From positions 1 through 64,000 of the forward strand of contig JAGLYV010000077.1 of assembly GCA_023131975.1 (NCBI GenBank): a stretch of DNA of 64,000 bases, given 5' to 3'. Source of the stretch: Candidatus Krumholzibacteriia bacterium (GTDB lineage: Bacteria > Krumholzibacteriota > Krumholzibacteriia > Krumholzibacteriales > Krumholzibacteriaceae). The number at the start of each line of letters is the position of its first letter. Position 1 is the first letter of the stretch. The notes below the pieces were generated by a model. That model had not been told where the DNA came from. It saw only the letters and a program-made list of their open reading frames with translations, and did not search any database. A program made the translations under genes and the position numbers. Below, in pieces: positions 2,096 through 26,629 of the stretch.

Positions 2096-3145
2096 ATGAG
2101 GATTATTTTAGCGACGCTATGCCTGACGACAATGATCTTTTTATCGGGGACCGTTCAGGCTGAGAAGTACGCTGGGGAGTTCATGGCCCTGGGTGGGGGA
2201 GCGAGAGCTATGGCTCTGGGTGGCGCATTCATCGCTGTGGCAGATGACGCTACGGCCTCGTTCTGGAACCCTGCTGGAATGGCCGGACTATATTCCGCGG
2301 GGGTGGGTCGAAGGGACTGGGAGATGAACTTCATGCACTCCGAAAGATTCGGCGAATTGATAGATTACAACTATTTTTCTGCCGCGTTTCCCCTCAGGCC
2401 GGGAGAATCGTCATGGGGTGTTACGATAATACACATGGGGATAGATGGCATTCCGATCATACCCTTTACAAGTGGAATGATCGAGAACTCAGACGGAGAT
2501 GACAGGTTTGAACCCTGGGCTGGAGAAAGACCAAATTTCAACCCTCTGGATTTTCCGATGGAGAGCGTAAATGACTTCGCGCTTTTTCTTTCATACGCGC
2601 AGGTAATGAGTTTCGCTGATCTCGGCGTTTCTCTGAAGATAATACGAAGCGACCAGGTGACAGATGTCTCAAGTTTCGGACTTGGGATCGATATCGGGCT
2701 GCTCAAACGACATGCCTGGAGAGATCTTGCGGTGGGCGTGAAACTTCAGGACGCCACCGGGACATATATAAGCTGGAGTACCGGCAAGAGGGAATTCATC
2801 TATCCCGCCCTAAAGGTCGGTGTCGCGTATCCCTTCGATATCAAGAGCATGAACAGTACTCTGCTTGTCGCCTGCGACGGGGATTTCAGGTACGAAAATC
2901 TCAAGGGAGTCTCACAGCTCTGGATCGGTGAGGCCAGCGCGGATTTTCATTTCGGGGCAGAACTGTTGATTCGTGAGATGGTTGCTCTCAGAGGAGGGTA
3001 CGATATGGGACGTCCTACGGCTGGAGCCGGTTTTGTCCTTGAGGATTTCGGTCCCTGGAATATATCGTTGGGAATTGATTACGCCTTGCTGGTCCACGAT
3101 GAACTCGACAATACTCATCGCGTATCGCTGATGATCTCACATTGA
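2096..3145 (+). CDS. PorV/PorQ-like (UPF0164-type) outer-membrane protein
   Basis: Signal peptide, then GGGARAMALGGAFIAVADDATASFWNPAGMAGL, the N-terminal signature of PorV-like/FadL-like barrels. Confidence 0.75.
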   Translation: MRIILATLCLTTMIFLSGTVQAEKYAGEFMALGGGARAMALGGAFIAVADDATASFWNPAGMAGLYSAGVGRRDWEMNFMHSERFGELIDYNYFSAAFPLRPGESSWGVTIIHMGIDGIPIIPFTSGMIENSDGDDRFEPWAGERPNFNPLDFPMESVNDFALFLSYAQVMSFADLGVSLKIIRSDQVTDVSSFGLGIDIGLLKRHAWRDLAVGVKLQDATGTYISWSTGKREFIYPALKVGVAYPFDIKSMNSTLLVACDGDFRYENLKGVSQLWIGEASADFHFGAELLIREMVALRGGYDMGRPTAGAGFVLEDFGPWNISLGIDYALLVHDELDNTHRVSLMISH

Positions 3146-4405: not shown

Positions 4406-5674
4406 ATGTCAGAAATGGCGACATTCATCCTCGCGGGTGGAATAGGGAAACGGCTCAGCCTGCTCACCATGTTCAGGGCGAAACCGGCCGTGCCCTTTGC
4501 GGGCAGGTACAGGATCATCGATTTCACTCTTACCAATTGTGTCAGATCGGATATCAGGTCGGTTCATGTGCTTACCCAGTATATCTCCAGGTCTCTTATC
4601 AGACATCTGGGCATAGGCAAGCCCTGGGACCTGGATCGGCTGAAGGGGGGGCTGCGTATCCTGCATCCCCGGTTAGGTCATGAGGGGGCCGACTGGTACA
4701 AGGGAACGGCAGATGCGATCTATCAGAACATTTCAATCCTTAAAAAACTCGATGAGAAATATGTCCTGATCCTGTCTGGCGATCATGTCTATGATATGGA
4801 TTATGGAGAATTTCTGGATTACCACATCGATAGCGGCAAACCGGCCTCTCTCGGTGTTATAGATGTGGATCCGTCGATGTGCAGAGAGTTCGGGATCGCC
4901 ACGGTTGACAGGGACGGCCGAATCACGAAATTCGAAGAAAAACCGGAACGGACGGACAGCACTCTCGCTTCGATGGGAATATACATCTTTGAAAGAGATT
5001 ATCTGATCGATATCCTCTCGCGGATGAAACCCCTCCATGAAGACCTGGATTTCGGAAAACATATAATCCCGAAACTGGTATCAAAAGATCAACTCGCGGC
5101 GTACCGATATTCTGGCCATTGGCTCGACATAGGCACTCTTAAAAGTTACTACAAGGCAAGCATCTCCCTTCTGGCGAATAATTCCAGACTGGAGCTCGGG
5201 AGCCAGGACCAGCCTATTCTTACTGTTCCCGAAGACAACCCGCCTTCGTTCATATCACGAACAGCAAGCATCCACAGATCGCTCGTATGCAGCGGATGTC
5301 ATATAAAGGGTGAGGTCAATAACTCTATTCTATCACCAGGAGTGACAGTCGAGGAAGGCGCCGTGGTAAAAGATGCCATCATACTTCACGGGTGTACCAT
5401 CCGCCGGGGAGCTAAAGTAACGAAAGCTGTTATCGATAAGAGGGCCGTAGTCGGGAGAGGATGTGTGATCGGTGAGGGAGACATCCGGGTGGCTAACGTA
5501 CTTCAACCGGGATACCTCGATTTCGGATTGACTCTTGTAGGGAAAAAGACTGTCATTCCCGCCGGTATTCGGGTAGGGACTAACTGTCTGGTCTCAGGGT
5601 CGCCGGAAAATGGTAAAATACCTAGGAATGATATCGCTGACGGGCAGTCTTTTTTATCCTCTATAGAGATCTAG
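4406..5674 (+). CDS. glgC: glucose-1-phosphate adenylyltransferase (paralog 2)
   Basis: [57 protein letters not shown]; hexapeptide-type C-terminus. Confidence 0.88.
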
Positions 5675-7488
5675 TTAGAATTCAGCCAGAGTGTGATCCT
5701 GTCTCCAGGGAACAACCTGTTCTTGTTCATCTTTGTGTTCCACGCGAGTACATCGGACATGCGGGTCTGATATTTCCTGCAGATCGACGTCAGCGTCTCT
5801 CCCCTGAGAACGACATGAACATGTTTCTTTTTTCCATCACCGATCGATCCAGCATCAGGTGAAAGCCCCTTGTCATATTTGGTTCCAGCACCCGGAGGGA
5901 GGTAGATAACGAGATTCTTGCCCGGATGGATCATCGATCTGTATCTGAGATTATTCCATCTTCGGAGCTTGCTGAGGCCAACACCGAATCTTTCAGCTAT
6001 CTCGCTCAGGGTGTCTTTCTTTCTGACTGTATAAACGACCTTTTTATGTCCTGAGGGAGGTTTGTATTTTTTTACTGTGATCTTCTTTGGGAGTTTTGAA
6101 GGTGCTTCCCTGTAGGATGGGTTGCTCAACGCAGCCGTTTTGTCCCCATTATCCCGGGTCGGGATCATGAGAGCCTGACCTATTTTGATCCTGTGAACGT
6201 TTTTTATGCCGTTGATCCTCTTCATCTCGGATTGGGAGATCTCATACTTTCCGGCGATCCCTGAAATAGTCTCTCCTTTTCGGACGGTATGACGGAGCCA
6301 GGACACTCTATCTTCGGCCGGGATCCTGTCAAGAGCTTCGACGACCTTAGCGCCGGTTCCGTACGGAACCTTGAGTTCTATGACCATTCCGGGAGGAGTA
6401 GCCCATCGTTTCAATGCGGGGTTCAGCTTCTTTATGCCCGTAAGGGTCGATCCGGCGGATTTCGCAATTATCCGAAGATCTGTAGATTTATCTATCGTGA
6501 TAACGTCGAATCGGAGTGGTGCCGTGTCGGGTATGATAAATCCATGAGCGGATGGATCACGCCCGATGGTGAGCGCGGCCATGAACTTCGGAACGAACCA
6601 TTTTGTCTGGCTTGGAAGCCGCAGCTTCCAGTAGTCGTCAGTCTTCTGAGATGAGATCGCACGCGCCACCCTGTATTCCCCGGCATTGTAGCCGGCAAGT
6701 GCCAGTTGCCAGTTTCCGAAAAGATTGTGAAGGTGTTTGAGGTAGTTTGCCGCAGCATAGGTGGAAGCTACGATGTCTTTTCTTTCGTCGATCCACCAGT
6801 TGATCCTCAGTCCGAAGAGCCGACCGGTTCCGGCCATGAACTGCCAGGGTCCTGTCGCGCTGACATTCGACCGCGCGTCGAGGTTCAGGCCACTTTCGAT
6901 CACTGCAAGAAAGAGAAGATCCCGGGGTAGTTCCATGCTGACAAGTACAGGTTCGATTATATCCCGATATTTTTCGACTCTTGTCAGCCAACGGGTAAAG
7001 TATCTGCGACCTTTCCCCTGGAAATACTTCATCCAGTGTTCGACCTTCCAGTTCATTACTACTTCGATTTCTTCTTCGACGACATGCGACGTTGCTATCG
7101 AGTCAAGTACAGCAGATACATGATTTTTCCAGTCCGACTCCGTTTCTTCTTCGATTATCCTCTGCTGGAGGACCGATGCGAGATTTTCGAGAGAATCCAG
7201 ATGCCCGCATACGTAGGGAGCAGGAGCAGTCGTCTTCATATCGATTATATCGAGGATAAGAGTGCTGCTCAACTGGAGAGATGTGGATATATCACCCAGA
7301 TAGTAGTAGGCACTGGCTTCATCGAGTTTTTCCTGAAGATCAAGTAGTTGTGGGTATAGAGCATACAATTGTTCGTTATGGAAATCGTTGTCTCCATACG
7401 CGATATCGGTGTTGGCTGATGACCGGTGACATCCCGATATTACTACCGCGGAGACCAGTGCCAAAAGAAACAAAATACGGATTTTCAT
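5671..7488 (-). CDS. mltD: membrane-bound lytic murein transglycosylase (MltD-like lipoprotein) with three LysM domains
   Basis: Lipobox VVISGC; SLT domain LLFLAVIESGLNLDARSNVSATGPWQFMAGTGRLFGL...LAGYNAGEYRV; three LysM repeats. Start set at MKIRIL, with AGGAGG just upstream. Confidence 0.9.
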   Translation of the reverse strand: MKIRILFLLALVSAVVISGCHRSSANTDIAYGDNDFHNEQLYALYPQLLDLQEKLDEASAYYYLGDISTSLQLSSTLILDIIDMKTTAPAPYVCGHLDSLENLASVLQQRIIEEETESDWKNHVSAVLDSIATSHVVEEEIEVVMNWKVEHWMKYFQGKGRRYFTRWLTRVEKYRDIIEPVLVSMELPRDLLFLAVIESGLNLDARSNVSATGPWQFMAGTGRLFGLRINWWIDERKDIVASTYAAANYLKHLHNLFGNWQLALAGYNAGEYRVARAISSQKTDDYWKLRLPSQTKWFVPKFMAALTIGRDPSAHGFIIPDTAPLRFDVITIDKSTDLRIIAKSAGSTLTGIKKLNPALKRWATPPGMVIELKVPYGTGAKVVEALDRIPAEDRVSWLRHTVRKGETISGIAGKYEISQSEMKRINGIKNVHRIKIGQALMIPTRDNGDKTAALSNPSYREAPSKLPKKITVKKYKPPSGHKKVVYTVRKKDTLSEIAERFGVGLSKLRRWNNLRYRSMIHPGKNLVIYLPPGAGTKYDKGLSPDAGSIGDGKKKHVHVVLRGETLTSICRKYQTRMSDVLAWNTKMNKNRLFPGDRITLWLNSN

Positions 7489-7561
7489 ATATTTCCTCCT
7501 CATATCCCGGTCAATATATTAGATATCGGCTCAGGATTCAAGGATATGAAGCTCTTCTGCT

Positions 7562-14046: not shown

Positions 14047-15594
14047 ATGAGCGACTGGAGTGGTGAGAGTATTGTAATCCTTGATTTTGGTTCACAGTAC
14101 ACACAGTTGATAGCGAGGAAAATCAGAGCCCAGAAAGTGTTTTCGAACATTTTGCCGAATTCCGCGTCAATCGATGAGATAGTCGCTGAAAAACCTGCCG
14201 GGATCATTCTTTCGGGAAGCCCGGCGAGTGTCCTGGGCAAAAAGGCTCCGGGTCTGAAGGCCGACATTTTCTCCCTTGGCCTGCCTGTCCTCGGCGTCTG
14301 TTACGGTATGCAGCTGATCTCCATCGACAGGGGGGGGAACGTCGACAAGTCGGATCACAGGGAATTCGGCCATACGGTGATCGATGTGGAAAGCGATAAT
14401 CCTCTATTCCGCGGGACTCCCGCCAAGCAACGTGTCTGGATGAGCCATGGTGACAAGGTGAATTCTCTTCCTGCCGGGTTTGAGACCATAGCATCCACAG
14501 AGGGTTGTCCGATCGCCGCTATGGAGAACAGGAAAGAAAGAATATTCGGTCTCCAGTTCCATCCCGAGGTGTATCACACAGATCATGGAGAGGCTATTCT
14601 CAGGAATTTCATTATCGATATCTGTGGATGCGAACCGACATGGAGCTCTGCCAGTTTTGCCGACCGCGAGATAGAGAAGATAAGAGAAACGGTAGGAGAA
14701 TCCAGGGTACTCTGCGCGGTGAGCGGAGGTGTAGACAGTTCAGTGATGGCGGTTCTTGTCGACAAGGCCATCGGGAAACGACTCTGTCCCGTATTCGTCG
14801 ATAATGGACTGCTCCGGGACAGGGAAGCCGAGGAAGTGAAAGAACTGCTTTCGGAATACCTGACGACTGATCTCGTATTCGTGGACGCGGCTGATGAATT
14901 CCTGAAAAGGCTGGATGGAGTCACTGACGCGGAGAAGAAACGGAAGATCATTGGAAAGTGCTTTATAGATATATTTGAAGAGCAGAGTAGAATACATGGA
15001 CCTTTTGATTTTCTCGCGCAGGGCACTTTATACCCCGACATCATCGAGAGCCGCTCGACAGTCGGTCCGTCGGCAACGATAAAATCACATCATAATGTCG
15101 GTGGGTTGCCCGAAGATATGAAGTTTGATCTGGTGGAACCTCTTTCCCTGCTCTTCAAGGACGAAGTCAGGGAGGTAGGAATGTATCTCGGGCTTCCTGA
15201 ACGGCAGATCAAAAGACATCCGTTCCCTGGCCCCGGCCTTGCGGTGAGAGTGCCGGGGGCCATCAGAAGACCCGACCTGGACGTTCTGCGCCAGGTGGAC
15301 AGGATCTTCATAGACGGCCTGAAAAAAAGTGGACTTTACGATGAAGTGTGGCAGGCGTTCGCGGTACTGCTTCCGGTGAAAAGCGTGGGTGTGATGGGTG
15401 ATGAAAGGACGTATCAGAACGCGGTTGTCCTGCGAGCTGTCACGAGTACCGATGGGATGACGGCGGACTGGGCAAAGCTGCCATTCGATTTTCTACAGGA
15501 TATATCTAACGAGATAATAAACCGTGTCGACGGGGTTAATAGAGTCGTTTACGATATCAGCACAAAACCGCCAAGCACGATCGAGTGGGAGTGA
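14047..15594 (+). CDS. guaA: GMP synthase (glutamine-hydrolysing)
   Basis: IVILDFGSQYTQLIARKIR, GVCYGMQ, FHPEVYHTDHG, AVSGGVDSSVMAVL, FPGPGLAVRVPG. Confidence 0.97.
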   Translation: MSDWSGESIVILDFGSQYTQLIARKIRAQKVFSNILPNSASIDEIVAEKPAGIILSGSPASVLGKKAPGLKADIFSLGLPVLGVCYGMQLISIDRGGNVDKSDHREFGHTVIDVESDNPLFRGTPAKQRVWMSHGDKVNSLPAGFETIASTEGCPIAAMENRKERIFGLQFHPEVYHTDHGEAILRNFIIDICGCEPTWSSASFADREIEKIRETVGESRVLCAVSGGVDSSVMAVLVDKAIGKRLCPVFVDNGLLRDREAEEVKELLSEYLTTDLVFVDAADEFLKRLDGVTDAEKKRKIIGKCFIDIFEEQSRIHGPFDFLAQGTLYPDIIESRSTVGPSATIKSHHNVGGLPEDMKFDLVEPLSLLFKDEVREVGMYLGLPERQIKRHPFPGPGLAVRVPGAIRRPDLDVLRQVDRIFIDGLKKSGLYDEVWQAFAVLLPVKSVGVMGDERTYQNAVVLRAVTSTDGMTADWAKLPFDFLQDISNEIINRVDGVNRVVYDISTKPPSTIEWE

Positions 15595-15617
15595 CCGGTA
15601 GAATACGTTTTCTCTTC

Positions 15618-15632
15618 TGGCACCCAACTTGC
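15618..15632 (+). promoter_or_regulatory. candidate sigma-54 (-24/-12) promoter TGGCACCCAACTTGC
   Basis: TGGCAC-N5-TTGC with GG-N10-GC spacing, in the 89-bp gap between guaA and slt. Confidence 0.65.
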
Positions 15633-15683
15633 CCTTCCTGTTCCAGTTAATACCCTGATTGTTCGAGAGGTAATAGTACAGGT

Positions 15684-17879
15684 ATGTCAAAATTGTGTAA
15701 CCGTTTGTCAATATTAGTGTTATTAGCAATAACAATCCCTTCGTCGAGCCTGGCGATAGCACGGGACATCCATGTCTGGAGAGGAGAATACGCGAAAGCT
15801 GTGCCGGGAATGCATCATCTTCTCGAGCCGGAAGACGTGCCTTATCTGGTAATGGCTGGAGACCTGAAGCGGGCATCAGAGGCGCTTCGGGGCGATAATG
15901 ATGAGTTATTGAAAGCTTTTATTTCGTTCAGGGCTGATGAATGGGCTGCTGTCATCGATGATTCCATGGGAGCCAATACAAATCCATGGCTTGAAGCATA
16001 CCGGAAATTTATGAGGTCATATTCTTTTCTGAAGATGGATCTGCCGGACAGCGCGATATCCGTTTCGAAGATGTTTCTGGCGGATTCTTTGACTGCCGAC
16101 CGATCCCTGGCTGGCACTTTCATATGGAAGCGGGTAATGACTCTCTACGCCAGAGCTCTTCTCCGCGCCGGAAGGGTCGGTCCAGATATTCTGAAGACAG
16201 TGGATGTGAAAGATGTCGATGTCGATACTCTGGTCGATCTTGCGGACTGCCTTTTTTCGAATGGGTGGTACGACTCCGCTAACATTCTGATCCTGGAAGC
16301 TTCGAAAAAGAGACCTGGGCCGGATGCGAGGAAGAAGCTCAAAGAAATCCTTCTTTCAGAGGAATGGAAAGGCAGGGGAACCTCTCCTCCTGACCTGGCC
16401 AGGATTGCCCGCAATGCGATTGCCGCCGGGATGCCGGATGCTGGTGCCAGGGTAGTCGATGTGCTGGAAGAAGCAGGGCATGACAGGTGGGAACTGCATT
16501 ATCTAAAAGGCCTCATCCTGGAAAAAAGAGGTCGCAGGAGAGCCGCAAGAAAAAAATTCAAGGAGATATTCAACTCCGGAGCTCCGGTAAAGATCAAGAA
16601 AAATTCGCTTCTTCGGATCGCCTCGATCGATTATCGCCTCAACAGGATGGAAAGGTCGGCCGCTAATTACCGTATGTTCGGCGTCTACTATCCCAACGAC
16701 AGGAGAGCGGAGAACGCAATAGATATTTCAGCGAGGATCAATATATCACAAAGAAAATGGGATAAGGCAATCGATACCTGGGACCTGACAAGGCGAAAGG
16801 GTCCCGTTTCGGATGTCGGACGCAATTCGGTTATCAGCGAAGCAGCGCTGTGTATCAGGCTTGGTCGGCGCAGTCAGGCAAGAGGCATACTATATTCGTT
16901 ATTGCCTCATGTTGACGGAAGAAGCAGAGCCGGGGCGCTTTACTGGATGTACAGGGCCAGTGACGATCCTGATTCGTTGGAAAAATGGGAAAAAAGCCTG
17001 GGAGAGGTCGTGCCCTGGTCGGTCTATTCTCTCGCCATAAAAAACGAAGAGAACCTCAATGCCGGCGGGCTTGAAGGATTCATGACTGATGACATAAAGA
17101 GACTCGAGATCGAGGAACGGGCAGAATATGAAAAAATCAGATCGCGGATGATTCTTATGAGACAAGGCTGTGAATCTCTGCTGATGGATGCCTTCGACTA
17201 CCTTGTCGACAGGGGGCTTCTTGATGAAGCCTCCGAACTTGCTGCCATTGCGGGATCTGGTACCGGTAAGGACGGCTGGTTGCCCTGGTATATCTATTGC
17301 CGTTTCAGGGAAAAGGGGATGACCGGGGAGAGCCTGTCGATCCTGCACAGCGTCAGAAATTACCCGGGGGGTGAGTCTGTTCCGATCAGACTTTTGTATC
17401 CCATCGCATATTCCGGAATGATCGCGGAATATTCTAAAAAATATAATATCCCGCCGGAACTTGTCCTCAGTGTCATTCGCGAGGAAAGTTCTTTTGATGA
17501 CGATGTGGTTTCACCCGCGGGAGCTGTCGGGCTGATGCAGGTGATGCCTTCGACCGGGCGATGGATCGGAGAGAAGCTGAAGGTCAGGAATTTTGATAAG
17601 TCTTATTTGTCAGAACCCTGGTTTAATATTTCAGCAGGTACATGGTATCTGAGGTTTCTCCTCGACAGAAGCGATGAATCGATTGTGGGCGCCCTGGCCG
17701 CGTACAATGCTGGAAACAGAAAGATGGCTTCCTGGAGAAAAGAATATGATCCGTCAGTCGACCCCATGATGGCTATGGAACTGATAGGGATCAAAGAAAC
17801 AAGGGAATATGTGAGGCGTGTAATGTCGACGATGGCGATGTACAGGACCATATATATGGACAATGGGGTCGAGAGATGA
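15684..17879 (+). CDS. slt: soluble lytic murein transglycosylase (Slt70-like, helical/TPR repeats + SLT domain)
   Basis: C-terminal SLT: YNIPPELVLSVIREESSFDDDVVSPAGAVGLMQVMPSTGRWI...AAYNAGNRKMASW; long alpha-helical N-terminal part with signal peptide. Confidence 0.88.
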   Translation: MSKLCNRLSILVLLAITIPSSSLAIARDIHVWRGEYAKAVPGMHHLLEPEDVPYLVMAGDLKRASEALRGDNDELLKAFISFRADEWAAVIDDSMGANTNPWLEAYRKFMRSYSFLKMDLPDSAISVSKMFLADSLTADRSLAGTFIWKRVMTLYARALLRAGRVGPDILKTVDVKDVDVDTLVDLADCLFSNGWYDSANILILEASKKRPGPDARKKLKEILLSEEWKGRGTSPPDLARIARNAIAAGMPDAGARVVDVLEEAGHDRWELHYLKGLILEKRGRRRAARKKFKEIFNSGAPVKIKKNSLLRIASIDYRLNRMERSAANYRMFGVYYPNDRRAENAIDISARINISQRKWDKAIDTWDLTRRKGPVSDVGRNSVISEAALCIRLGRRSQARGILYSLLPHVDGRSRAGALYWMYRASDDPDSLEKWEKSLGEVVPWSVYSLAIKNEENLNAGGLEGFMTDDIKRLEIEERAEYEKIRSRMILMRQGCESLLMDAFDYLVDRGLLDEASELAAIAGSGTGKDGWLPWYIYCRFREKGMTGESLSILHSVRNYPGGESVPIRLLYPIAYSGMIAEYSKKYNIPPELVLSVIREESSFDDDVVSPAGAVGLMQVMPSTGRWIGEKLKVRNFDKSYLSEPWFNISAGTWYLRFLLDRSDESIVGALAAYNAGNRKMASWRKEYDPSVDPMMAMELIGIKETREYVRRVMSTMAMYRTIYMDNGVER

Positions 17880-19231
17880 GACTAAGGGAGATGCTGAGCC
17901 TGTTCGTACTCTCTGCGGTCGCCTTCCTGTTTTTTGTTTCAGGTGGAAGGACCGGTTCCACGCTGGTGGTTCCTCCATGGACTCACACTTTTGGCCTGCA
18001 CAGGGTCACTGAAAAGCAACTCAGATTTATGTCGGGATTCAAGACCGGGTCTCTGGATGCGCGGGCTGTATTCTGCACCAGCCTGAAAAGTTCCTGCAAT
18101 GCTGAGAACAACTATAAAGAAGACGACATCGCGATCTTCGGCATCAATCGGTATGATAACACTATTATTTACAATGCCGGAAAAGGAAGGGCGAAAGTGT
18201 TCGGAAAGGGGAACAATGTGGTTGAGTTCTCCGGCCCCGAAGACCTCACGGGTGATGATGAAGGAAATATCTTTGTGGCCGATACTGGAAATAACAGGAT
18301 AGTACATCTCAGAATGGTGGAAGGTGATCTTGTCTTCGTAAAGGAGTTGAAACTGTTCGATGACCTGGCCCTGGATTCTCCCCGTGGTATTGATTTCTCA
18401 GGTGGCTTGTTATTCATCGCTGATACTGGTAACGACAGAATCGTCGTTTCCCATCCTGGCGGAAAGACAGAATCGATCCTCAGGCCAGAGGCAGGTGGAG
18501 CAAGTCTCGACTCACCGGTATCTGTCAGCGTCACATCTGATAGTGATGAATGGGTTTATTACACGGATTGCTTCGTTGCGGTAGTGGACAGTTCTGGACA
18601 TAGATTGTGGAAGGTCGGAAGGGATACTGGACACACCCGGGTTATCAGGTATTCCGATGTGTTCGGCAGGAACGGCGCGTTCAACGACCTTGATATGGAT
18701 TACTACAGTAATGTCTATGTCACCGACAGGTCTTCCTGCTGCATACACAAGTTTGATCGGAATCTCAACCATATCATTACTCTTGGCAGCGGCAGGCAAG
18801 GTGGTGTCGACTTTGATGAGGCGATGGATATCTCGATCAACAGACGCTTCGGGCAAGTCGTCGTCCTGGAAAAAAGAGGATTGAGATATTTCTGGGTCGG
18901 GACCGATCTGCTGGATTTAGACGCATCTGGTCTTTTTTACGAACCCAATGAGGGAAAATGTCGAGTCGACGTATCGTTTCTCATCACAGAACATTCGGTC
19001 GTCGATATCTTCCTCGAGGATATGAATGGCGATGGAAGGTTGTATTTTGCAAGGGATCTCCTCCTTCCGGGAGGTCGATTCAACAAGAGGATCGAAGTAA
19101 AAGGCGTCGTTCCCGGTACGATCGAGAACTGCAGGCCCAGATTGGTTGCAGTCGCGAAACCTACTTATTCTTCAATCGATTATATCGCTGTGACAAAAAA
19201 ATCACCCAGCCTTACCCCGACCATCAGATAA
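17876..19231 (+). CDS. secreted NHL-repeat/six-bladed beta-propeller protein
   Basis: Signal peptide; repeated blades such as GNIFVADTGNNRIVHLRM, GLLFIADTGNDRIVV, NVYVTDRSSCCIHKFD. Start overlaps the slt stop (ATGA). Confidence 0.75.
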   Translation: MRLREMLSLFVLSAVAFLFFVSGGRTGSTLVVPPWTHTFGLHRVTEKQLRFMSGFKTGSLDARAVFCTSLKSSCNAENNYKEDDIAIFGINRYDNTIIYNAGKGRAKVFGKGNNVVEFSGPEDLTGDDEGNIFVADTGNNRIVHLRMVEGDLVFVKELKLFDDLALDSPRGIDFSGGLLFIADTGNDRIVVSHPGGKTESILRPEAGGASLDSPVSVSVTSDSDEWVYYTDCFVAVVDSSGHRLWKVGRDTGHTRVIRYSDVFGRNGAFNDLDMDYYSNVYVTDRSSCCIHKFDRNLNHIITLGSGRQGGVDFDEAMDISINRRFGQVVVLEKRGLRYFWVGTDLLDLDASGLFYEPNEGKCRVDVSFLITEHSVVDIFLEDMNGDGRLYFARDLLLPGGRFNKRIEVKGVVPGTIENCRPRLVAVAKPTYSSIDYIAVTKKSPSLTPTIR

Positions 19232-19264
19232 TCCGTTCTGATCTTGAACTCCAATGATCCTTTT

Positions 19265-19280
19265 TGGCCTGCCATTTGCA
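19265..19280 (+). promoter_or_regulatory. candidate sigma-54 (-24/-12) promoter TGGCCTGCCATTTGCA
   Basis: TGGC-N7-TTGCA with GG-N10-GC spacing, in the gap between the NHL and TPR genes. Confidence 0.6.
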
Positions 19281-19347
19281 ATAACGGCATATGTCTTGTT
19301 CGTAGCCATTACATAAAATGAAACCCTGGAATGGAAAGGGCTGCATA

Positions 19348-20289
19348 ATGTTCATCAATAGATTTCTTGGATTTTTGCCTAAAAGCAACCTGAAAAAAGC
19401 TCTGAGCTTCCTGAACAAGGGAGAGTACAAGAGATCATGCAGGGAGTTCGAAGCATACCTCGCCCATAAAGCCGGTGTGATCGGAGGCAAGGACCAGGAA
19501 ATGATCCGGATGTACATGGTAGAGTCATTTATCGAGTATGCCCGGGAACTGGAAAACGCAGAAAAGTATGATGAATCGGCGGCAGAGCTCGAGAAAGCGG
19601 TCGAGCTCCAGCCTCATTATGCTGATGTACATTTTACCCTTGGTCGCATGTATGGTTATTCAGACAAAACGGTCAATGCAAGGGAAAGCATCAAGAGAGC
19701 CCTGGCCATTAATCCCGACTACTTCAGAGCAAGGATCATGCTTGCGAAAAGTTACCGTGATGACAAAAAACATGACAGGTGTGCCGAAGAAATTGAGAGA
19801 GCCATGTCAGCTGCTCCTAATTTCTTTATTGAGCAGGTCCGGGAGTTGTCGAGGGAGATCAGGATCGAACCGGATGGCAAAAGAGCGGATGATCTGTTCG
19901 AAAGACTTCTGGAAGAAAGGCCTTCGTCCTCGCAGGTAAGCAAACAGATCGCCCTGGAAGCCGTACAGAACGGGGATTATGAATACGCGATAACTGAACT
20001 GAAGAAATCTGTGTCGATGAACCCGAATTATCCCGACATGCACAATCTCCTTGGAATAGCATACGCGAATATGGGAATGACCGATGACGCGGTAATGGAA
20101 TTTGAGATTGCCCTGAAGGTCAATCCTGAATACCTGAAGGCCAGGATCAACATGGCTCTTACTCTTTATGAAAAAGGTTCTTCTGAAGCGGCGATGACAC
20201 ACTTGAAAGTCATCTTGAATCTCGACCCAGAGAACGAACTGGCCAATAATCTTCTCAAGGAACTCGAACCGGTCCTGAACAAGAGGTAG
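19348..20289 (+). CDS. TPR-repeat protein
   Basis: Tandem TPR units (AAELEKAVELQPHYADVHFTLGRMYG; AITELKKSVSMNPNYPDMHNLLGIAYANMG; AVMEFEIALKVNPEYLKARINMALTLYEKG). ORF opens at 19318, but ATG 19348 has SD GGAAAGGG. Confidence 0.85.
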   Translation: MFINRFLGFLPKSNLKKALSFLNKGEYKRSCREFEAYLAHKAGVIGGKDQEMIRMYMVESFIEYARELENAEKYDESAAELEKAVELQPHYADVHFTLGRMYGYSDKTVNARESIKRALAINPDYFRARIMLAKSYRDDKKHDRCAEEIERAMSAAPNFFIEQVRELSREIRIEPDGKRADDLFERLLEERPSSSQVSKQIALEAVQNGDYEYAITELKKSVSMNPNYPDMHNLLGIAYANMGMTDDAVMEFEIALKVNPEYLKARINMALTLYEKGSSEAAMTHLKVILNLDPENELANNLLKELEPVLNKR

Positions 20290-20295
20290 ATTGAA

Positions 20296-20985
20296 GTGAA
20301 TACCGATTATTACGCACTCCTGGAAGCATGGCCGACTTCATCCAAGGATGATATAAAGAAGAACTATTTTCGCCTCGCAAAGCTGTATCATCCCGATGTC
20401 GCCGGTGACAAACCTGAGGTCAGAGAGCGATTCAAGCAGATCAACGAAGCGTTCAGCACACTTGACGATCCGGAGAAAAGGCATCAATATAACGAATCGC
20501 TGAGAAAAAGCAAGCAGGGTTCACGGGATGCCCAGTCATTGCAGGAAAACGATCAGAGAACGGCTATCCTGGCTTTTCAGCAGGCAAAGGAAGCAATGAG
20601 GGACGGATTCTACGATAAGGCTGTGCTCTTGCTCAAGTCAGCCATAAAGTACAATTCCTCCAATCCTACATACCAGAGTTGGTATGGATTCTGTCTGGCT
20701 ATGACGAACAAGAACCTTCACGAGGCCAGGGACGCCTGCAGGATGGCTATTCAGAGCGAGTTCTATAATGCCGACTATCACGCGAATCTGGGTTTTGTCT
20801 ATTTTAAGGCAGGATTGAAGGCCCAGTCGATAAAACACTTCAGGGAAGCCCTTAAATGGGATTCGAAAAACAGTATAGCAAATAAATTTCTGGATCGGGT
20901 CGACAGGGGCAGGGGGAAGCCTGTAGGTCCGATTGACAGGATGATCTCTGCGGCAAAGCATATCTTTACGTCGAAAAGTAGCTAA
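20296..20985 (+). CDS. J-domain (DnaJ-like) protein with C-terminal TPRs
   Basis: DYYALLEAWPTSSKDDIKKNYFRLAKLYHPDVAGD (HPD motif), then TPR-like helices. GTG start. Confidence 0.88.
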   Translation: MNTDYYALLEAWPTSSKDDIKKNYFRLAKLYHPDVAGDKPEVRERFKQINEAFSTLDDPEKRHQYNESLRKSKQGSRDAQSLQENDQRTAILAFQQAKEAMRDGFYDKAVLLLKSAIKYNSSNPTYQSWYGFCLAMTNKNLHEARDACRMAIQSEFYNADYHANLGFVYFKAGLKAQSIKHFREALKWDSKNSIANKFLDRVDRGRGKPVGPIDRMISAAKHIFTSKSS

Positions 20986-21061
20986 ACAGGCGCTTTTAAT
21001 ACCTCATAAGCATATTTTATGTTGCATTTTCAGTCTGTCCCGGCTAATCTCCGCAAGCGAG

Positions 21062-22975
21062 GTGGTCGTGATGAACAAGACGTCTTTTCTGTGTATCGGC
21101 AACAAGGGCAAGGAAAACTCGCTCGTCTATCAGGAAATCCCCAGAAAAACCAGAGGTGAAGAGTTTTTTGTCTTCTTTTCTCCTTCGGATCCCGCGTTTG
21201 AACCTGTGGCCCGCAAGTTGTTCCGACATATTATTTCTCTTTCCAGACTCGGGCATCCGTCAAATTTCTTTTCAAGGGTGATGGATATCTTTAAGGATGT
21301 CGCCAATTTCCATGATCCTGATGGTACTTTTCTTTCGGATTCTATGATTCTAGTGATGATCAAGAGAGAAAGAGATGTTTATCTGCTGCGGAACAGCGGA
21401 GTAGAAGCTGTCCACAGGGATATCGACCAGTCTGTCGAGACTCCACTGGATGCCTACCCGGGACTTTACAGATACGATCTGGATCGGAACTCAGGCCAGG
21501 TCGAGCTTTTTGAGAGCAAAACAGAAGATTTTTTCACATTGCAGAGATTTGAGATGGCGCCCGGCAGGCATACTATTGTCTTCGTACCTTCGAAAGATTT
21601 TGTTGAAAGACATAGGGAGGCCCTGCTGAACAGCGTATTCTTTCCCTCGTTCGAGATGAAGGATGATGGGATCGAGACGGGGATCGATCTGACATTTCCG
21701 GCAATGAGATGGAATATACCAACGATGTATGACAAGCCGGTTACCGGCGTGAGGAGAAGGGGAATGATAAGAAAATGGATTCCGTATTCGGCCGGCGCGG
21801 TTGCTGCCATAGTCGCCCTGATATTTATTTTTAAACCGTTTGGAGGCGGGGCTGACAGTCCCATTGAAGGAGATGTCCTTCTTACAGCCGAAGACGGGAT
21901 TGTTGAAACAAGTGAGACAGAAGCTGCTGAATACCGTGGCTCCGAAGAAACGATCGAAGTGAAAAGCCCCGTGCCAACCGACGTTTCTGATAAAGTGACG
22001 GTAAGCATGGTTGATGGCTGGAAAAAGAAATTCGATGCACCGGTAACCTCGTCCCCGGTCTTGACAGGGGATCAGGTCATTTTCGGATGCCGTGATGGAA
22101 ATCTATATTCCTTCAGCCGGGATGGGTCACTTCTGTGGAAATACACAGGGAAGCAGGGGATCGGGGCTTCTCCCTTTGTGTCTGAAGGAAGAGCAGTATG
22201 CGCGGATTACGAGGGAAATGTATTTTGCCTTGACGCCGTGTCGGGCAGCTTGATCTGGAACAACGGGACCGGTGACAAGATCGTCAGTTCACCCGTCATT
22301 GGAAATGATATGGTTATTTCCGGGACGACAAAGGGAACACTCTACGCATTTTCCCTGAAAGATGGAGTTCGCCTCTGGGCTAAAAACATAGGTACGGGAA
22401 TCTGGGCGACCAGCACCATAGGGGATGATTTTGTCATTGCGGCAACCACCGATGGATCACTGGTAAAACTGAGTCATTCAGGAAAGGTACTCTGGAGGGT
22501 TCAGCCCGGCGGGGAAATATATTCGACCCCTCTCGTCCTGAAAGAAAAAGACCTTGTCATTTTCGGTACTGGAGACCGGTTTATCTATGCATATTCTCTC
22601 TCGGCCGGCAATCTCATGTGGAGGTTTTCGGCAGGTAGCGACATCAGAAGCGCTCCGGTGACAAACGGAAGTGAGATATTTGTAGGGTCTGAAGACGGGA
22701 ATCTTTTTGCGTTGACGTTCGCAGGGACTCTTGTGTGGAAGAGAGATGTGGGGGGAGCGGTGAGATCGAGACCCCTTGTGGTCGAAGATGCTGTATTTGT
22801 CACTACTTACGGCTCCAGGCTGAAGGCGTTCAAGTCGAAAGATGGAGAGCCTGTGGTTGAATTCAGGGTTGAATCACCCGTCTATTCATCGCCGGCGACT
22901 GATGGAAGATTGATATTTTTCGGGTCAAACCAGGGGTATTTTCATGCCGCGCGTCTGAAACGCGGTATCAGTTAG
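21062..22975 (+). CDS. membrane protein: N-terminal PP2C-like domain (tentative), one TM helix, C-terminal PQQ/BamB-like beta-propeller
   Basis: Single hydrophobic helix IPYSAGAVAAIVALIFIF, then repeated GxLYAFSLKDGxxLW / SSPVxxGDxV blades. N-terminal domain: DSMILVMIKRERDVYLLRNSGVEAVHRD. Confidence 0.72.
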   Translation: MVVMNKTSFLCIGNKGKENSLVYQEIPRKTRGEEFFVFFSPSDPAFEPVARKLFRHIISLSRLGHPSNFFSRVMDIFKDVANFHDPDGTFLSDSMILVMIKRERDVYLLRNSGVEAVHRDIDQSVETPLDAYPGLYRYDLDRNSGQVELFESKTEDFFTLQRFEMAPGRHTIVFVPSKDFVERHREALLNSVFFPSFEMKDDGIETGIDLTFPAMRWNIPTMYDKPVTGVRRRGMIRKWIPYSAGAVAAIVALIFIFKPFGGGADSPIEGDVLLTAEDGIVETSETEAAEYRGSEETIEVKSPVPTDVSDKVTVSMVDGWKKKFDAPVTSSPVLTGDQVIFGCRDGNLYSFSRDGSLLWKYTGKQGIGASPFVSEGRAVCADYEGNVFCLDAVSGSLIWNNGTGDKIVSSPVIGNDMVISGTTKGTLYAFSLKDGVRLWAKNIGTGIWATSTIGDDFVIAATTDGSLVKLSHSGKVLWRVQPGGEIYSTPLVLKEKDLVIFGTGDRFIYAYSLSAGNLMWRFSAGSDIRSAPVTNGSEIFVGSEDGNLFALTFAGTLVWKRDVGGAVRSRPLVVEDAVFVTTYGSRLKAFKSKDGEPVVEFRVESPVYSSPATDGRLIFFGSNQGYFHAARLKRGIS

Positions 22976-23082: not shown

Positions 23083-26136
<3,054 letters not shown>

Positions 26137-26182: not shown

Positions 26183-26629
26183 ATGGAGATGAAGGAACGC
26201 ATCAAGGAGATCATAACCTATATCATGGACCTGAGGACGGGCGACCCGTTCGACCTGGCGTTCATGTACGATGAACTCGAGGATCTGGGTTATTCCAGCG
26301 CTGAAATAGATCAGGCCTTCACTATCCTTGATTTTGAGGGGGAGACAGGAGATGTCGATGCGTCATCGTTTGTGCATACGAAGAACAGAGTCCTTGGCGA
26401 AGGAGAGAAAATAGTTCTTTCGGTTGAAGCTCAGGGATATCTGATCCGGCTCCAGACTTCAGGGTGGCTTACGGAAATCCAGCTGAGCCTGATCGTAGAA
26501 AATGCTGCAATCGATTACCAGATCCCGATATCTGTCAACGAGATCATTGAACTTACTGCCAGATATGTACCGGAGATGCCAGACGATATCCTTATGGGAT
26601 CGAACAGTCCTTCAGACATGCTGAACTAG
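26183..26629 (+). CDS. smg: Smg/DUF494 family protein
   Basis: MKERIKEIITYIMDL...LEDLGYSSAEIDQAFTILDF; located directly upstream of topA. Confidence 0.7.
   Translation: MEMKERIKEIITYIMDLRTGDPFDLAFMYDELEDLGYSSAEIDQAFTILDFEGETGDVDASSFVHTKNRVLGEGEKIVLSVEAQGYLIRLQTSGWLTEIQLSLIVENAAIDYQIPISVNEIIELTARYVPEMPDDILMGSNSPSDMLN

Follow-up and report, generated by a model that had tools for sequence, protein, structure and literature searches.

Between guaA (14047-15594) and secA (23083-26136) of a Candidatus Krumholzibacteriota MAG (2.79 Mb, 96% complete) lie five genes of the + strand, slt, nhl, tpr, J-tpr and pqq, and they raise the question of whether they act together in the cell envelope, how they are controlled and what they might do there. 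A preliminary description of the DNA had taken them for a single five-gene module under sigma-54 control, acting in envelope stress or in protein-export quality control. The Krumholzibacteriota paper that we found has nothing on this locus, and no description of the function of the block was found. We analysed the stretch of 64,000 nucleotides that carries the block (the window) together with related loci of the Krumholzibacteriia, the families of which are denoted here f1 to f8.

Gene content of the locus

All five open reading frames were recovered as consecutive, co-directional genes before secA, and Pfam matches bore out the domains that had been assigned to them. We refer to slt and nhl as unit A and to tpr, J-tpr and pqq as unit B, or the core.

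15684-17879, + strand: slt, secreted lytic transglycosylase with an N-terminal TPR-like region; SLT domain at residues 579-687
17876-19231, + strand: nhl, secreted NHL-repeat beta-propeller; overlaps slt by 4 nt
19348-20289, + strand: tpr, cytosolic tetratricopeptide scaffold of 313 aa with a conserved N-terminal MFI.RF segment
20296-20985, + strand: J-tpr, cytosolic J-domain (HPD) and TPR protein with a conserved C-terminal GPID segment
21062-22975, + strand: pqq, predicted pseudo-PP2C, single transmembrane helix and PQQ propeller
23083-26136, + strand: secA, adjoining pqq and probably outside the module

The slt product matches Slt (PF01464, E 4e-29) along with weak TPRs, nhl matches NHL (PF01436, E 1.7e-12), tpr the TPR (E 1e-23), J-tpr both DnaJ (PF00226, E 2.6e-20) and TPR, and the propeller of pqq the PQQ repeat (E 2.7e-62). 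Alignment of orthologues makes the ATG at 19348, not 19318, the most likely start of tpr. A search with Rfam found no known RNA element in the intergenic gaps of the block. Elsewhere in the window, a DUF494 (Smg-like) gene stands between secA and topA (26183-26629), an order conserved in relatives; a second SLT protein, MltD-like and carrying LysM domains, is encoded at 5671-7503 on the - strand, opposite to the block; and a PorV/PorQ-family outer-membrane protein (2096-3145; NF033709, above cut-off) hints at type IX-like secretion.

Sigma-54 promoters and a candidate enhancer

A sequence was counted as a potential sigma-54 site if it had both GG and GC and matched the consensus at 9 or more of 11 positions, a setting that gives a background of 0.06 sites per kb per strand.

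15618-15633, + strand: sigma-54 -24/-12 promoter of unit A, TGGCACCCAACTTGCC, 10/11 consensus, 66 nt before slt
19265-19280, + strand: sigma-54 -24/-12 promoter of unit B, TGGCCTGCCATTTGCA, 9/11, 83 nt before the likely tpr start
19040-19052, unstranded: palindromic candidate enhancer, TTGTATTTTGCAA, matching at 9/10 and lying 225 nt before the sigma-54 site of tpr

Both sigma-54-type promoters proposed within the cluster proved real by this measure and, since the same positions recur in relatives, neither is a chance match. The slt promoter, TGGCA[CT]N5TTGCC or a close variant, occupies the same place in 12 of the 15 same-order loci, counting the window, in which both guaA and slt are present. 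For tpr, a site lies at most 350 nt upstream in 28 of 31 loci and at -485 to -580 in the remaining three (L151, L156 and L160), whereas the same test found none upstream of secA (0/46), pqq (0/28) or J-tpr (0/31); guaA (1/26) and topA (6/33) show that not every neighbour is clean. These loci are related by descent, so that the counts are not independent trials and their weight lies in the contrast with neighbouring genes of the same genomes. Sigma-54 control of the block, as predicted from sequence, is thus supported and forms the strongest part of the original proposal, while secA, having no site of its own, was rejected as a member of the sigma-54 unit. The source genome has one rpoN and about 18 sigma-54 activators, and rpoN was found in all 31 genomes examined, including those of f4 and f5 in which the core is not at the locus. 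One such activator (AAA+ with a Fis HTH; PF00158, E 2.7e-66) is encoded at 423-1958, about 14 kb upstream of the block; it scores above the cut-off of no curated activator family.

In the f1 loci, the 260 nt that precede the sigma-54 site of tpr contain the sequence TTGCAAAATGCAA, which we scored as TTGCA-N3-TGCAA. With this motif, derived from the f1 loci, a palindrome matching at least 9 of 10 positions was found in 16 of 31 tpr upstream regions, compared with 1.2% of control windows, and a perfect one in 8, compared with 0.4% of controls; it is also present in four of the five f7 loci, which had not been used in motif discovery. No copy was found in the tpr upstream regions of f2, f3 and f6. 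The palindrome stands 119-262 nt upstream of the tpr sigma-54 promoter in relatives, and the copy in the window is a weak version placed differently from theirs. Where nhl is present the palindrome overlaps the end of its coding sequence (the LAKCK codons); in the nhl-less loci L031, L039 and L045, and as an 8/10 match in L040, L041 and L042, it stays in what is non-coding DNA. A lipoprotein gene elsewhere in the source genome (L077; G000 contig C134, ~29368) has a sigma-54 site with a perfect TTGCA-N3-TGCAA 209 nt upstream of it, which makes it, after tpr, another candidate for regulation by this activator.

Regulon context

The wider regulon was sampled with a simple sigma-54 pattern, which in the source genome gave 25 hits against 12 for the reversed control and in three of four relatives was not enriched at all, so that single sites of this kind mean little. 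Sites that recur across genera are found upstream of GAF/GGDEF-type regulator, wza-like exporter, lptC-like, lipoprotein and HutI-like genes (the names wza, lptC, GAF/GGDEF and HutI being our readings of the sequences and not profile matches), and PEP-CTERM proteins share sigma-54 sites within the genus. The lptC-like gene L084 and its homologues L196 and L233 have sites upstream in two genera, suggesting a sigma-54 input to LPS transport. On one contig of the source genome (G000 contig C116; L072, L087, L245), the exosortase is encoded together with the best-scoring sigma-54 activator and with a PEP-CTERM protein whose gene has a sigma-54 site. Because conserved sites precede genes for polysaccharide export, LptC-like proteins, PEP-CTERM proteins and lipoproteins, the sequence context suggests that the block belongs with a cell-surface programme rather than with a stress response, and since nothing was found that ties it to stress, the envelope-stress role of the preliminary description is not supported.

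A published view gives sigma-54 control over the exterior of the bacterial cell (PMC3162934), and in Myxococcia it regulates lytic transglycosylases and polysaccharide export (COG0741 and COG1596; PMC12316311), in a paper the main text of which mentions neither Krumholzibacteria nor SecA. PEP-CTERM systems elsewhere have sigma-54 sites and the TPR protein PrsT (PMC1569441), so that the PrsK/PrsR/PrsT system resembles the present block in combining sigma-54 promoters with a TPR protein in a surface-related regulon; a J-TPR and a pseudo-PP2C/PQQ protein are absent from the components named for that system (PMC1569441). A rival explanation, somewhat less probable than the one we prefer below, is that the block is no sensor at all, only an accessory of surface biogenesis within a sigma-54 programme of polysaccharide export, LPS transport and PEP-CTERM/exosortase, its TPR/J-TPR pair helping to assemble an envelope machine. 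It would fit the exosortase and the PEP-CTERM genes with sigma-54 sites, the conserved sites before wza-like and lptC-like genes in several genera, and PrsT as the best NCBIfam match of tpr. That match, however, is far below cut-off (TIGR02917, 106.6 bits vs 312.2) and the cytosolic tpr has no lipoprotein signal, for which tpr was rejected as a PrsT; a search upstream of the PEP-CTERM genes turned up no shared enhancer palindrome; and the regulon sample itself exceeds its control only about two-fold.

Conservation across Krumholzibacteriia

A tblastn search of 20 loci, drawn from genomes of the same family or the same order, gave the arrangement purH-guaA-[slt]-[nhl]-tpr-J-tpr-pqq-secA-DUF494-topA-trmFO in all 20, as far as the contigs reach. 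The core is present in every one of them (the tpr of L043 is a fragment at a contig end), whereas the bracketed genes come and go: nhl is gone and slt kept in L031, L039, L040 and L045, both are gone in L041 and L042, and slt is gone with nhl kept in L037 and L046; nhl is also missing in L146, L149 and family f6. In alignments with the window proteins, tpr (45-90%, 19 orthologues) and J-tpr (44-86%) have the highest identities of the block, and slt has the lowest (27-35% outside the genus).

Profile searches and neighbourhood maps extended the survey across the families of the class. In f7 and f8, tpr, J-tpr and pqq precede secA, and full-length J-tpr orthologues were found in f6, f7 and f8. 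The f6 order is M6-type gene, slt, tpr, J-tpr and secA, with nhl and pqq not at the locus, and that of f3 is M6 protease, slt, nhl, tpr, a J-less or no J-tpr, pqq and secA; within f3, L156 has lost the J-domain and keeps the TPRs, and tpr and pqq stand without J-tpr in L160. The core is not at the locus in f5, where the order is M6 protease, slt and secA, nor in f4, where nhl precedes secA and a membrane protein of about 190 aa is found there in two of three usable loci, the upstream stretch of a fourth contig (L161) being too short to judge. This small protein between nhl and secA (L165:5524-6090, L163:11435-12007) has no Pfam match and looks by eye to be of the dolichol/phytol-kinase type. 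The M6 metalloprotease gene stands before slt in f3 and f5 (L164:7855-10704, L160:2715-5360) and probably in f6 too, an assignment that rests on a Pfam match for a single protein from each of f5 and f3, and on length, position and sequence resemblance for the rest; the M6 proteases of related loci bear FlgD-like C-terminal domains.

The block just before secA is therefore kept across most families, and the claim of a syntenic module held for gene order. It did not hold for a single phyletic pattern: the losses of slt, nhl, pqq and the J-domain are partly independent. Losses of slt or nhl alone, and a locus without the core in f4 and f5, led us to reject the five genes as one unit; the module is old and modular. 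Synteny is moreover weak evidence of co-function here, because the surrounding order (purH, guaA, secA, topA and trmFO) is conserved anyway and exists without the core in f4 and f5. An extreme form of this objection, that five functionally separate genes merely share an old, frozen neighbourhood in which two happen to have sigma-54 promoters, we consider quite unlikely. The flanking housekeeping genes are indeed equally syntenic, slt and nhl vary independently, and in f5 slt still precedes secA although the core is missing there; against this, tpr, J-tpr and pqq remain closely spaced behind a single promoter of their own in different families, and tpr and J-tpr occur as a pair in nearly all genomes that have either one at the locus.

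The neighbourhood of secA also bears on the proposed role in protein export. In all families with the core, secA adjoins it, no terminator-like site was found on the + strand between pqq and secA, which makes read-through possible, and the propeller of pqq resembles that of BamB (YfgL), with which it shares the PQQ_2 repeat (TIGR03300, E 3.9e-49). A SecA-linked quality control of export or of the outer membrane, in which the propeller would play the part of BamB, is nevertheless decidedly unlikely: no sigma-54 site precedes secA, which holds its position in f4 and f5 even though the core is missing there, no link to stress was found, and pqq was rejected as a BamB, its 167 bits standing against a cut-off of 285 and its predicted form being that of an inner-membrane protein with a cytosolic domain, whereas BamB is a free periplasmic lipoprotein. 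The export quality-control role is thus not specifically supported.

Architecture of the pqq protein

Two features precede the propeller of pqq.

21071-21721, + strand: N-terminal domain of predicted PP2C fold (Foldseek), without the metal-binding aspartates
21779-21832, + strand: single transmembrane helix, N-terminus in

The N-terminal domain has no Pfam match, and no relatives were found for it in the PDB at the sequence level. AlphaFold models were made for two diverged sets of sequences, A6 from the window's own order (pLDDT 82.8) and A7 from f7, f8 and f3 orthologues (pLDDT 81.7), which profile comparison with hhalign joins at a probability of 96.6%. With Foldseek, PP2C-family phosphatases alone are among the PDB matches listed for A6, the best being SpoIIE (5mqh, E 2.3e-5, prob 1.0), and they also make up the matches listed for A7, bar a Legionella SidD-type deAMPylase at rank 41. 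TM-scores are about 0.3-0.55 with high rmsd, so that the fold class is well supported and its details are not. An alignment of 21 sequences of the domain has no column occupied by Asp throughout; only two keep an acidic residue in every sequence (D/E mixed, mostly D), neither of which by our reading belongs to a PP2C motif, and the DG.GG, GDSR, SDG and DN positions are replaced, as judged by reading the model against known PP2C motifs and not by structural superposition. An active PP2C phosphatase was rejected on the missing metal-binding aspartate motifs, and for the same reason the modelled domain is probably a pseudophosphatase. A scan of named genomes for the domain returned 14 loci, all from MAGs, labelled Krumholzibacteriota/Krumholzibacteriia, UBP1, plain 'bacterium' and, in one case, Latescibacterota.

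A transmembrane helix at residue ~240, preceded by a K/R-rich stretch, is present in 20 of 20 proteins, and the positive-inside rule predicts from it that the PP2C-fold domain is cytosolic and the propeller outside. The single-pass protein with a PP2C-like cytoplasmic N-terminus and an external propeller is thus upheld by predicted fold and topology. The protein shares its fold with the PP2C/PPM phosphatases SpoIIE, RsbX and PstP and differs from them in lacking the conserved metal-binding aspartates and in being fused to a transmembrane helix and an external PQQ propeller. AfsK-type Ser/Thr kinases likewise join a phospho-signalling fold to a PQQ propeller, and AfsK spans the membrane; the NCBIfam AfsK model matches the propeller of pqq only (E 7.3e-18), and pqq has the putative pseudophosphatase in place of the kinase. 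Partner-switch signalling, with the domain working like SpoIIE/RsbU to control a sigma/anti-sigma circuit, is very improbable, for despite SpoIIE being the best fold match of the own-order model, the aspartate motifs are missing and the block has no anti-sigma or STAS gene.

J-domain and chaperone link

The HPD motif is intact in 21 of 21 same-order J-tpr orthologues, which gives J-tpr the J-domain with HPD that marks a J-domain co-chaperone. As a canonical DnaJ (type I/II) it was rejected, since it reaches 70 bits against a cut-off of 377 and TPRs replace the client-binding domain. No dnaK or grpE was found near the block, in agreement with the first reading, and the source genome encodes two full-length DnaKs at other places. 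Recruitment of DnaK by J-tpr, if real, is not universal, because the f3 locus L156 has lost the J-domain and kept the TPRs; with L160, which lacks J-tpr altogether, it shows that the J-domain function is not essential everywhere.

Proposed role of the block

Our tentative preference, held with somewhat less than even confidence, is for two sigma-54-switched units, the second of which would encode a trans-envelope scaffold that docks its partners through a pseudophosphatase domain and takes DnaK to a site at the membrane. The products of unit A would be secreted, the transglycosylase opening peptidoglycan and the propeller accompanying it. In unit B, the core, pqq would span the inner membrane with its propeller outside and its presumably dead PP2C-fold domain inside, and we infer that the likeliest task of this domain is to offer both TPR proteins a surface on which to dock. 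The J-domain, its HPD intact, may then recruit one of the DnaKs of the cell to the membrane site, whereby the state or assembly of the envelope outside could be coupled to assembly or disassembly that chaperones drive inside. Binding of an activator to the candidate palindromic enhancer upstream of tpr would switch on the core and other surface genes alike. The two units may act together in a putative surface-biogenesis role. Counting against the scaffold is that core members are separate in some families (f6, L160 and L156).

A bolder version, which would make the block a trans-envelope regulator of a new class, is unlikely. In it the external propeller, via the dead PP2C docking domain, would control a TPR/J-TPR platform bringing Hsp70 to the inner membrane, and a dedicated sigma-54 activator at TTGCA-N3-TGCAA would switch on the whole. 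We know of no membrane receptor that acts through chaperone recruitment by a pseudophosphatase. If the pseudo-PP2C/TPR/J-TPR link is true, the condition of the cell surface would be tied to cytosolic Hsp70 by a route that, to our knowledge, is not among the known envelope signalling systems. For the Krumholzibacteriota, which have very little experimental biology, a block conserved in most families together with its promoter and candidate enhancer offers a concrete target.
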